Below, piece after piece: positions 1 to 60,148 of a stretch of 64,000 nucleotides of DNA; within the stretch, counting starts at the first letter, position 1; every line of letters begins with the position of its first letter. This DNA is from Flavobacteriales bacterium. Its GTDB lineage: Bacteria > Bacteroidota > Bacteroidia > Flavobacteriales_E > Vicingaceae. The notes beneath the pieces were generated by a model. The model was given only the letters and a program-made list of their open reading frames with translations. It searched no databases and was not told the DNA's origin. The DNA is taken from contig PALM01000044.1 in the NCBI GenBank assembly GCA_002706365.1, positions 1 through 64,000 of the forward strand, read 5' to 3'. The translations under genes were made by a program, and so were the position numbers.

Positions 1-107
1 AGTTTCTCTATCAATGCATATACTTCATCTGCAATTTCTATCCCCATTTTCCAAATATGAAGCTTCTTATAGTTGTGACGCTTTTCCATAAGTTTTGATT
101 TTGTCAT
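1..107 (-). CDS. Four-helix-bundle protein, S23/23S-IVS-like (5' part only)
   Basis: The gene starts with ATG at 107 on the minus strand and leaves the window after 35 codons. The visible residues contain the stretch RHNYKKLHIWKMGIEI, which is how free-standing members of the S23-type four-helix-bundle family (named after proteins in 23S rRNA intervening sequences) usually begin. A second, decayed copy of the same gene lies near 29,267 on the other strand, and the leaders of the two copies are also alike. A block of ARYCTAG repeats lies about 45 bp upstream of the start codon. The family has no established catalytic role; I infer that it belongs to a small dispersed element. Confidence 0.75.
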   Translation of the reverse strand, partial: MTKSKLMEKRHNYKKLHIWKMGIEIADEVYALIEK

Positions 108-151
108 GACTTATTAAAAGGTACAACAATGATCTTATTACCACAATCCTA

Positions 152-186
152 AGTCTAGATTCTAGGCTCTAGACTCTAGACTCTCT
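152..186. repeat. ARYCTAG 7-bp unit array (arm of dispersed element, copy 1)
   Basis: Read on the minus strand this is a run of CTAG-containing heptamers (AGTCTAG, AGTCTAG, AGCCTAG, AATCTAG, then ACTT). The same type of array, ending in the same CTAGACTT, stands before the four-helix gene at 29,190. It lies 6 bp from the stop codon of the HDAC-family gene. The far arm of this copy would be outside the window. Confidence 0.8.
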
Positions 187-28311: not shown

Positions 28312-29187
28312 ATGAATAAGGATATAGATACTTCACAAACCGACGATGACTTGAAGGCTGAGGGACTGAGAATATCCAAGACTACAATGCCGGAAGATCC
28401 TCGCAAGATCTCCGCATCTAAAACGGATTCAGAAGATGATTTTCTGAAGATTCTAAACCGACAGTCAAGGGAGTTATCCATGGTTATCAACCTGGAGGGT
28501 AAGATCAAATTCTGCTCTCAGGCAATTAAGATCCTATTGGGTTATGAATCATCACGACTGATAGGTAATAATGTAAAAGAGATTATTCCAGTCCAGCAAT
28601 GGGTAGCTTTTAGGGCTGCCTTAAGGGCTAGTGAAGAAGAATCTGAAGAGCCCATTTATATCAACTGTGGTTTCATTGATATCGACGATAAGCGTCAACA
28701 TTTTAGTGTTTCTGTGGTAGATGCCAGACATCATCCTACAATCGAAGGTTATATCATACATGCTCACTTGATCAGTAGACAAAAGAAGTTGGAGCATCGA
28801 TTGGGATTGCGAGATGCTGCTTTAAGTGTGGTGAAAGAGGCTGTGATCGTGATCGATCCCAAAATTCAAAAGGTATTGTATGCCAATCAAGCTTTCTACG
28901 ACTTAAGTGGATTCAGTTCCTCAGAAATAGTAGGAGGAAAGTTGGATATTTTCAAATCGCCCTATTCAGAGATGCTGTTTGATGATAGAACAGACGCCAA
29001 AGAGATTGAGAAGTTCAGAAAGGCGATCTCTAATAACAAAAAGTATCAAGGACGCATTTACAGTAAGAAGAAGAATGGCGATGTGTTCTATAATCGCTTT
29101 TCACTAACCCCTACCTTCGATAGCGAGGACAATTTGCAATATTATGTTGCGAATGCGAGTGAGATACAGTCACGTAAGAAAGGGTGA
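28312..29187 (+). CDS. Two-PAS-domain protein without output domain
   Basis: A 291-residue protein. A disordered N-terminus (about 45 residues) is followed by two PAS domains (about 50-165 and 172-287). The first has GYESSRLIGNNVKEIIP; the second has VLYANQAFYDLSGFSSSEIVGG and ends in YYVANASEIQSRKKG. PAS domains normally continue into a kinase, cyclase or other effector. Here the stop comes right after the second PAS and the CTAG repeat element begins 3 bp later. Either it works as a stand-alone sensor or the element has cut off its effector. Confidence 0.85.
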   Translation: MNKDIDTSQTDDDLKAEGLRISKTTMPEDPRKISASKTDSEDDFLKILNRQSRELSMVINLEGKIKFCSQAIKILLGYESSRLIGNNVKEIIPVQQWVAFRAALRASEEESEEPIYINCGFIDIDDKRQHFSVSVVDARHHPTIEGYIIHAHLISRQKKLEHRLGLRDAALSVVKEAVIVIDPKIQKVLYANQAFYDLSGFSSSEIVGGKLDIFKSPYSEMLFDDRTDAKEIEKFRKAISNNKKYQGRIYSKKKNGDVFYNRFSLTPTFDSEDNLQYYVANASEIQSRKKG

Positions 29188-29189
29188 TT

Positions 29190-29680
29190 AAGAGCCTAGA
29201 ATCTAGAACCTAGAGTCTAGACTTCTTTTGTGGAGGCAATTTTAATGTTGTACCTTTTTATAAGTAACCGTTAATTCAAAACTTATAGAAAAGCGTCACA
29301 ATTATAAGAAACTCCAAATATGGAAGCTTGGAATAGAAATTACAGATGAAGTGTACGAATTGATCGAAAAACTTCCTAAGTCAGAGACCCATGGATTGAA
29401 TTCCCAAATGAGGAGAGCTTCATCTTCGATTCCGTCCAACATTGCAGAAGGATCAAGTAGATCAAATAGGTCATTTTCTCATTTTCTAGATATATCGCTT
29501 GGCTCTTCATATGAGCTAGAGACCCAATTGATTATATCAGAACGAAGAAAGTATTTTAAAGCCACAGATTGTATTGCTTTGACTTAAAAAATTGTTGAAC
29601 TCCAAAAAATGTTGAAAGAATTCAAAAACAATCTAGGCTCAGTCTAGATTCTAGACTCTAGGTTCTAGATTCTTATAAAA
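29190..29680. mobile_element. Inverted-repeat-bounded element with decayed four-helix gene (copy 2)
   Basis: The left arm (29191-29222) and right arm (29642-29673) are arrays of ARYCTAG heptamers. A 24-bp block, 29198-29221, is the exact inverse complement of 29650-29673. The arms enclose an S23-like gene remnant with the same leader as the copy at the window start. The arms lie within 0-10 bp of the stop codons of the PAS gene and of the SirB1-like gene. No transposase or obvious target duplication is visible; calling it mobile rests on its dispersal. Confidence 0.6.
29267..29647 (+). pseudogene. Decayed S23-like four-helix-bundle gene
   Basis: Aligned with the copy at the window start, the reading frame continues from 29267, but the start ATG has become ACC and the internal Met codon ATA. 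A TAA stop at 29585-29587 cuts the frame; the rest (KIVELQKMLKEFKNN) continues in the same frame to a TAG inside the right CTAG arm. The body is well preserved (QMRRASSSIPSNIAEGSSR; SSYELETQLIISERR), which points to recent loss. A GTG at 29351 would give only 78 residues lacking the first helix. Confidence 0.8.
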
Positions 29681-30545
29681 GATTCTTCCTCAAATCCAGC
29701 AGATCATTCACCTTTTCATCCTCCTCATGCTGATTGTAGGCGTATATGAGATTGTTGATCAGGCGTTTTACTACTTCTAATTTGCTGCAGGGCAGGTAGA
29801 ATTCCGATTTGACTTCCAATTGCAATTGAGAGAGGAACTCTTCAATATCTTCCATCTGGAAAAAGCTTCCCTGATTGAATAGATTGATGTAAAAAAGGAT
29901 ATTGTTTGGATCTCTTCTATCGCCAAATGGCAGTGGAAGATCGGTATAGGCCAAGACAAAATGTTCTGGCAGGTTCACGCCATAAACAGGAACTCTCAAT
30001 CTACTTGCAATCTCTAAATAGAGTATGGCCAAGCTGATCGGACTGCCTTTTCTGCGATCCAATACCTGATTGATGTAAGCATTCTTCGGGTGATGGAAGT
30101 CTTCTTTATTTCCGTGAAAACCATAGATTGAAAAGAAGACCTTATTGATCACACCGGCCTTTTCCATAGCTGTGTAATTGGGGTTCAATTCGATCCAAAT
30201 GTCCTGAGTAAGTTGATCTACAAAGTCGCGTATGGCTTGTTCGTTGAGTTCTGGATACTGATATCTGGCAATGATGATTGATGCATCCAGATAGCTACCA
30301 TCTGCTTTCTTCCAATCCATGAGCATGGCACCCACATTGGATAGATTGATCTTGTGGATTAAATTCTCCAGTCGATTTTGGAGACGCTTGTCGTAAGATT
30401 TCTCCCAGCGTTCCTCAAGAATAGGAACAATGGCATTACCAAAGTTTATGAGTTCCCCCTTGATCTGATCGTAGATCTGTTGATCCGGATCATCCAGTAA
30501 ACTCATTAAGGCATCTAATTTCGACTTGTCTTCCATCCTTAACAA
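29673..30545 (-). CDS. SirB1/transglutaminase-like protein
   Basis: A 290-residue protein. The N-terminal helical repeat region (about 1-75) is followed by the SirB1 domain (transglutaminase-like fold) with RKGSPISLAILYLEIASRL near 172-190, VYGVNLPEHFVLAYT near 195-210 and an INLFNQGSFF stretch near 232. The equivalent Cys of true transglutaminases is replaced in this family, so it is probably not a peptidase. Function unknown. Its stop codon touches the right arm of the CTAG element. Confidence 0.85.
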   Translation of the reverse strand: MLRMEDKSKLDALMSLLDDPDQQIYDQIKGELINFGNAIVPILEERWEKSYDKRLQNRLENLIHKINLSNVGAMLMDWKKADGSYLDASIIIARYQYPELNEQAIRDFVDQLTQDIWIELNPNYTAMEKAGVINKVFFSIYGFHGNKEDFHHPKNAYINQVLDRRKGSPISLAILYLEIASRLRVPVYGVNLPEHFVLAYTDLPLPFGDRRDPNNILFYINLFNQGSFFQMEDIEEFLSQLQLEVKSEFYLPCSKLEVVKRLINNLIYAYNQHEEDEKVNDLLDLRKNLL

Positions 30546-59961: not shown

Positions 59962-60019
59962 GAGGAAGTGCTACTGGAGTGCTCTAAAGTGCACTAAAGT
60001 GAGGCTAGAGTTTTTATAT

Positions 60020-60125
60020 GAATCTAGAACCTAGAGTCTAGAATCTAGACATTGAATTTTACTAATGATATGCTACCTCGTCCCTGAATTAGAACTAATC
60101 TAGGCTCTAGATTCTAGGTTCTAGA
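60020..60125. repeat. Gene-less CTAG inverted-repeat element (copy 3)
   Basis: Two arms of ARYCTAG heptamers enclose about 49 bp. The left arm 60023-60049 and the right arm 60099-60125 are inverse complements with only three mismatches in 27 bp, all transitions. The left arm (60020-60050) is identical over 31 bp to the right arm of copy 2 (29642-29672, inverted). No four-helix gene remnant is recognisable inside. It could also fold as an RNA stem and end transcription of the upstream gene. Confidence 0.78.
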
Positions 60126-60148
60126 ATCTCCACAACCATCCATATCCT

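Follow-up and report, generated by a model that had tools for sequence, protein, structure and literature searches.

Within the window, which is the whole stretch of 64,000 nucleotides of a Flavobacteriales genome that was analysed, a single small gene lies between two mutually inverted rows of the 7-bp unit ARYCTAG. This arrangement raises the question of what kind of genetic unit occupies the site and by what means it could have spread. The site at 29191-29673 probably holds a copy, now decayed, of a small mobile element in which a gene of the S23 family is enclosed by inverted rows of heptamers. Its parts are the following:

29191-29221, plus strand: left arm, AGA followed by four RYCTAGA units; homology to the copy on contig C33 starts here
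29222-29284, plus strand: leader of the S23 gene with a genus-specific TTGTTGTAACTT-like motif, here ATGTTGTACCTTTTTATAAG
29285-29617, plus strand: decayed S23 gene (23S_rRNA_IVP, PF05635), 113.5 bits, with one TAA
29642-29673, minus strand: right arm, RYCTAGA unit inverted, abutting the stop codon of a convergent gene

A decayed S23 gene between heptamer arms

The first-pass annotation had described tandem ARYCTAG arms and a 24-bp block recurring as its inverse complement. Both are real, and the block is exact (29198-29221 and 29650-29673). The four-helix gene placed between the arms is indeed of the S23 type, as its profile match to PF05635 reaches 113.5 bits against a curated cut-off of 33.8. 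It is the sole gene between the arms, and two protein genes flank the element. The gene is a pseudogene: a TAA interrupts it at 29585-29587, and ATA stands at the start position (29285-29287), whereas the two sister copies begin with ATG. Another S23 copy is likewise a pseudogene. Since the window copy is decaying, the suggestion of a domesticated element finds no support. The TTGTA motif of the leader is mostly limited to the host genus, and the idea of an S23 promoter motif conserved across phyla was dropped for this reason.

The arms had also been noted to lie within a few bases of stop codons at the gene-bearing loci, and this is borne out. The left arm begins at 29191, 3 bp past the stop codon (29185-29187) of a PAS-like upstream gene, the right arm ends about 1 bp from the stop codon of a convergent gene (29673-30545, minus strand), and the distance is 9 bp at the second copy.

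ARYCTAG arrays in the host genome

The sequence ARYCTAGARYCTAG occurs 14 times in the window, compared to 0.03 expected occurrences. ARYCTAG is found at three loci of the window (1-182, 29191-29673 and 60019-60129), the other two of which comprise:

1-115, minus strand: 5′ part of the second S23 copy, truncated at the contig edge, with an intact start codon
153-182, minus strand: ARYCTAG arm of the second S23 copy, 9 bp past the stop codon of the neighbouring gene
60019-60050, plus strand: left arm of a convergent pair without a gene
60098-60129, minus strand: right arm of this pair

The 51-bp interior of the gene-less pair shows no relation to the S23 gene. Just upstream of it, at 59966-60001, lies an array of the AAGTGCACTA type, which is the unit of another S23 family of the host genome (C46:110637), so different array families co-occur in one intergenic region.

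In the host genome (3.02 Mb, 47 contigs) 344 overlapping 14-mer matches were counted, and a single one with the reversed pattern as control. As each four-unit array yields three such matches, more than 100 ARYCTAG arrays are present. In 805 kb of host genome stretches, some of them picked for holding arrays, 70 ARYCTAG arrays were found versus 2 in the reversed DNA, four units being the commonest size. Most of these arrays have no gene; an S23 gene lies inside ARYCTAG arms at three loci only (29.3 kb, the contig start at 1-182, and contig C33). A 21-base ARYCTAG pattern was present in 2 of 100 genomes searched, namely the host genome and one congener. The search of the genome and its relatives that the annotation had proposed thus located arrays in the host and one congener, while the expectation of a four-helix gene in every pair of arms failed, because most arrays are solo. 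The annotation had named widespread arrays unlinked to four-helix genes as evidence against its element. Formally, arrays without such a gene are indeed widespread; conversely, S23 genes are nearly always armed.

Dispersal is not limited to this unit, as most other arm units of the host S23 genes also form arrays away from the gene. In the 805 kb, AATCAGA gave 41 arrays versus 6 in the control, and several other units gave 8-15 versus 0-2. Heptamer arrays of the ATRTGAR type were seen as well (10 versus 0, for instance near position 4030 of L062), for which no S23 gene was found in the host genome; the S23 gene of this family may have been lost or may lie in the missing part of the assembly. 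At 18 of 53 other loci the best match of an arm within 10 kb of its own gene was better than at any of 15 other loci (3.3 expected). GTAC-type arms had 100 and 123 matches in the two genomes whose S23 genes bear them, compared to 0-9 in 14 other S23-bearing genomes. The pattern TGAGAYN was found 45 and 63 times in the two genomes with the clearest such arms and 27 times in one unrelated control genome; the presence of several S23 families within a genome is the probable reason. A 23-base ARYCAAG pattern, which was too strict, gave no dispersal signal. In several genomes, then, the arm unit of an S23 gene is scattered through its own genome.

Inverted heptamer arms at S23 genes of other bacteria

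The host genome contains 12 PF05635 genes, whereas 14 control genomes contain none. All 12 are flanked by inverted short-tandem arms (lowest score 12.0), with the units RYCTAGA, TTTAGAR, GGTCGRG, GAGTCCGAGGAAC, GAGGAC, GGAGRTCGAAGAC, GGGAGAT, AGTGTGCTTGA, AATCAGA and AAGGATTA. Inverted arms were also found at 8 of the 9 S23 genes of a congener and at 71 of 91 S23 loci from genomes other than these two, including cyanobacterial plasmids. For the inverted-flank score a cut of 12.5 was used, the 99th percentile of the control being 12. This cut was reached by 90 of 112 S23 loci from several phyla. Among these, named records supplied 79 loci, of which 62 reached it; most of them are from Bacteroidota, others from Planctomycetota, Omnitrophica, Betaproteobacteria and Nomurabacteria, and an earlier count whose margin differed slightly had put 52 of the 79 above 12. 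Of 12 plasmid loci (cyanobacteria, Azospirillum, Gemmatirosa) 9 reached the cut. About one fifth of the S23 loci lack clear arms. Among 175 small genes used as a control 12 reached 12.5, and at least 5 of those 12 are S23 genes themselves. A period of 7 was best for 141 of 181 arms, compared to 185 of 2000 random stretches. Arm similarity rises with the similarity of the S23 proteins (Mantel rho 0.31, 0 of 2000 permutations), and common descent may partly lie behind this correlation. The design of an S23 gene with inverted arms therefore recurs in many bacteria, with a unit that differs from gene to gene.

Three further observations were made at these loci. Stop codons interrupt the S23 frame in 5 of the 79 named-record loci (L081, L086, L088, L094 and L099), which fits a decay of element copies that is still under way. 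In two cyanobacteria the cas6-cas4 interval of a type I-D CRISPR locus is occupied by an S23 gene whose heptamer arms differ (L157:2995-3354 and L159:2986-3354), which suggests an inserted element and not a Cas accessory gene; 23S_rRNA_IVP genes in cas loci have been noted in one published paper. Many Bacteroidota S23 elements are directly preceded by the stop codon of a gene with a thiolase-like C-terminus (CVGTGQGAxGIFEF; loci L082, L087, L090, L091, L094, L106, L107, L113, L121 and L127), and this neighbourhood reflects either repeated insertion at one kind of site or one ancient insertion inherited in common.

Occupied and empty sites

Comparison of occupied with empty sites, as had been proposed, revealed both kinds. 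The alignment of the window copy with the C33 copy runs from outer arm edge to outer arm edge and does not continue beyond. In the congener the orthologous interval consists of 76 bp between the same two genes, with neither arms nor an S23 gene. Nostoc plasmids are polymorphic at base level, the insertions lying at stop codons. At site B2 the empty sequence is GGTTCTAGGTTATGC and the occupied one is GGTTCTA, the element and TTCTAGTTATGC; the scar is a duplication of about 5 bp, although TTCTA also resembles an arm unit. At site B1 the insertion took place at an overlapping stop/start TAATG with duplication of at least ATG, and about 40 additional bases lie beyond the right arm. At site A the element has taken the place of about 45 intergenic base pairs that follow the stop codon. 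At the nrdB/nrdA site of Nostoc the arm adjoins the nrdA stop codon, and Calothrix has no element there. As the scars are not uniform (duplications of 3-5 bp or replacement), they do not point to a standard transposase. With homology ending at the arms and with empty sites at hand, the proposal of a selfish or mobile element, in which folding repeats frame an S23 gene, was upheld.

The placement at gene ends is general. Of 64 arrays, 34 start no more than 20 bp past a stop codon on the sense strand, compared to 6.2% of intergenic positions expected. At 57 other S23 loci with clear arms the left arm starts at a median of 6 bp after the upstream stop codon; the upstream gene is on the S23 strand at 54 of them (baseline 76%, p = 2e-4), and both neighbours are at 50 (baseline 57%, p = 8e-7). 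Simple longest-frame gene calls underlie these placement figures.

Arms are also turned over. At two positions, one next to frr and the other flanked by hmgA- and hppD-like genes, as we take these neighbours to be, both congeners keep the S23 gene with differing units. Furthermore, several gene ends that bear a solo array in the host genome bear a different array or an S23 element in the congener. Either such ends are hot spots or arms are rewritten in place, and a differing congener array at the same end does not separate these two readings from fresh insertion.

Unit variation and RNA folding

The 246 NNCTAGA units comprise 205 of the RY form, 34 inverted ones (YT) and 7 of any other form. 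Because these last are so few, the earlier statement that units differ by transitions only holds for the ARYCTAG family. As a general rule it was dropped, since differences between adjacent units in other genomes comprise 219 transitions versus 252 transversions. In an RNA fold of the window element the arms pair as a basal stem (z = -6.3; C33 copy, z = -2.8). The further claim that R/Y variation preserves G-U pairs did not stand, as the two arms of a pair are no more alike than arms taken from different loci (permutation p = 0.91) and thus show no covariation. For the same reason the exact 24-bp match is not special. A simpler reading would be that whatever reads the RYCTAGA unit tolerates either base at the R and Y positions.

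The S23 protein and known systems

For the intact C33 copy AlphaFold2 predicts a four-helix bundle (pLDDT 95.4), which resembles XCC0516 (2gsc; TM 0.91), Avd (4dwl; TM 0.81) and the DGR ribonucleoprotein (8ub7/8ub8; 0.73-0.81). A sister copy matches TIGR02436 at 107 bits (cut-off 24), and Pfam yields only 23S_rRNA_IVP and a weak bAvd match for the S23 protein. To our knowledge the S23 fold has no catalytic site. XCC0516 is a homopentamer (PMC4990558). The Avd/bAvd fold is shared with diversity-generating retroelements; unlike in these, no reverse transcriptase (RVT_1) was detected in the host genome, which is 95.7% complete.

A closer parallel are the intervening sequences (IVS) of 23S rRNA. 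IVS with an S23 ORF in Leptospira and Coxiella are regarded as selfish elements whose insertion can replace a few host bases, and the Coxiella IVS is excised by RNase III without religation (PMC4990558). The window copy resembles them in having a single S23 gene enclosed by inverted arms that pair as a stem. It differs in lying between two protein genes, as the S23 elements described here are multicopy units between protein genes at stop codons, their heptamers vary per paralogue, and their arms are scattered as solo arrays and gene-less pairs. A location inside an rRNA gene was found only on the Azospirillum lipoferum plasmid AZO_p2, where an S23 gene with GGACRGA arms, reading in rRNA direction, lies inside a full-length LSU rRNA match. 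This locus is the known IVS arrangement, with the heptamer-arm S23 design inside 23S rRNA.

The resemblance in outline to REP/RAYT systems without a transposase, which the first-pass annotation had pointed out, was confirmed. As in REP/REPIN-RAYT systems, a single gene is framed by inverted repeats and many non-autonomous repeat copies occur genome-wide, often in 3′ intergenic positions. In contrast to these, the S23 element has no Y1/HUH tyrosine transposase and no RAYT gene flanked by the repeat, and its repeat is a tandem heptamer array instead of a short palindrome with a conserved tetranucleotide. The host genome contains three Y1_Tnp (PF01797) genes, none with ARYCTAG within 1.5 kb, which leaves a RAYT as mobiliser of ARYCTAG unsupported. 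GC-rich REP-like palindromes occur near at least two of them (L252 and L253), and the genome apparently harbours a REP/RAYT system separate from ARYCTAG. Nor does the element resemble an insertion sequence with a DDE transposase, as only the S23 gene lies between the arms and the scars are 3-5 bp duplications or replacements. No match was obtained in 50,697 phage records or with defence-system models.

Heptamer repeats have been published as GGGAATC in Xanthomonas and GGGGAYT in Nostoc (PMC4692102) and as TAACTGA (PMC4679880). The Xanthomonas arrays mostly have four units, many form convergent pairs, and they are found on the coding strand, 0-50 bp past a stop codon (PMC4692102). Like the arrays described here, these repeats and the cyanobacterial STRRs have 7-bp units, and the Xanthomonas arrays agree in unit number and placement as well. 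The arms of the Nostoc plasmid S23 genes are G-rich heptamers of the same kind as GGGGAYT. S23 is not mentioned in the searched text of the two papers, of which one sees no general link of the repeats to mobile elements and the other states that no mechanism is evident (PMC4692102; PMC4679880). No link between S23 and heptamer repeats was found in the open-access literature searched.

Proposed mechanism and alternatives

We consider it reasonably likely that the S23 element, of about 480 bp and probably selfish, spreads by its S23 protein together with host enzymes, which would insert elements or arms at gene ends. To the observed anatomy, association of arms and gene, family-specific dispersal, placement at stop codons and empty sites, this reading adds a putative binding of the S23 protein to the arms, a spreading driven by that protein and a chemistry supplied by the host. 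The arms would be the cis sites of their cognate S23 protein. Insertion would be promoted by this protein and host enzymes, not by a transposase or reverse transcriptase of the element, and would place whole elements as well as solo arms at gene ends, usually just past the stop codon and in sense orientation, so that neighbouring reading frames stay intact. In the transcript the arms may pair as a stem with the S23 frame in the loop, as in the IVS excised by RNase III.

Alternatively, the S23 gene could be a passenger that only protects or regulates, while the element is mobilised in trans by some unrelated enzyme, for instance a Y1/HUH transposase, or by general recombination. The heterogeneous target scars, the three Y1_Tnp genes and an S23 protein without a catalytic domain would agree with this. 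We nevertheless regard it as unlikely: the Y1 genes lack neighbouring ARYCTAG and at least two of them are accompanied by their own REP-like palindromes, RVT_1 is not found in the genome, and a common trans enzyme does not predict an arm unit that changes with the S23 lineage.

The strong sense-orientation placement just past stop codons, shared by the published Xanthomonas arrays (PMC4692102), and the occurrence of Avd-fold proteins in RNA-protein complexes could also be taken to mean that the arrays are mRNA 3′-end or termination signals, read by S23 as an RNA-binding regulator encoded within its own targets. This is quite improbable, given that 98 of the 100 genomes searched lack the long ARYCTAG pattern, closely related plasmids differ in which sites are occupied, each genome holds many S23 paralogues whose units are unrelated, the design also occurs inside 23S rRNA, and the window copy and another one are pseudogenes. 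Even less credible is an origin of the heptamers by local replication slippage with a coincidental link to S23. Bacteria commonly contain heptamer repeats, and slippage has been put forward as their source (PMC4692102; PMC4679880), but arms flank S23 genes far above the control, one unit recurs at many loci in an orientation fixed relative to stop codons, and whole-element homology stops at the arms. The microsatellite reading is therefore disfavoured.

Beyond the S23 element of this host, we tentatively put forward a wider reading, which is possible but falls short of being probable. S23/Avd-fold proteins might mark out a superfamily of mobile elements that is widespread and uses neither transposase nor reverse transcriptase; heptamer arrays would be recognised by a non-enzymatic ring of five four-helix bundles, which would steer their copying to gene ends. 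The 23S rRNA IVS, the four-helix orphan genes and the scattered heptamers of cyanobacteria, Xanthomonas and Bacteroidota would then be forms of this superfamily, unit and protein diverging together.

Implications

If the S23 element spreads as proposed, one more kind of mobile element would exist, without a recognised recombinase. For S23 genes in cas operons an alternative reading is offered, namely that they are inserted elements and not functional partners. We know of no role for the orphan four-helix S23 genes and of no way of spreading for the heptamer repeats that have been described for decades. With each S23 gene tied to its own heptamer unit, these two puzzles become one experimental question, and the S23 design offers a testable explanation for the scattered bacterial heptamer repeats of unknown origin.
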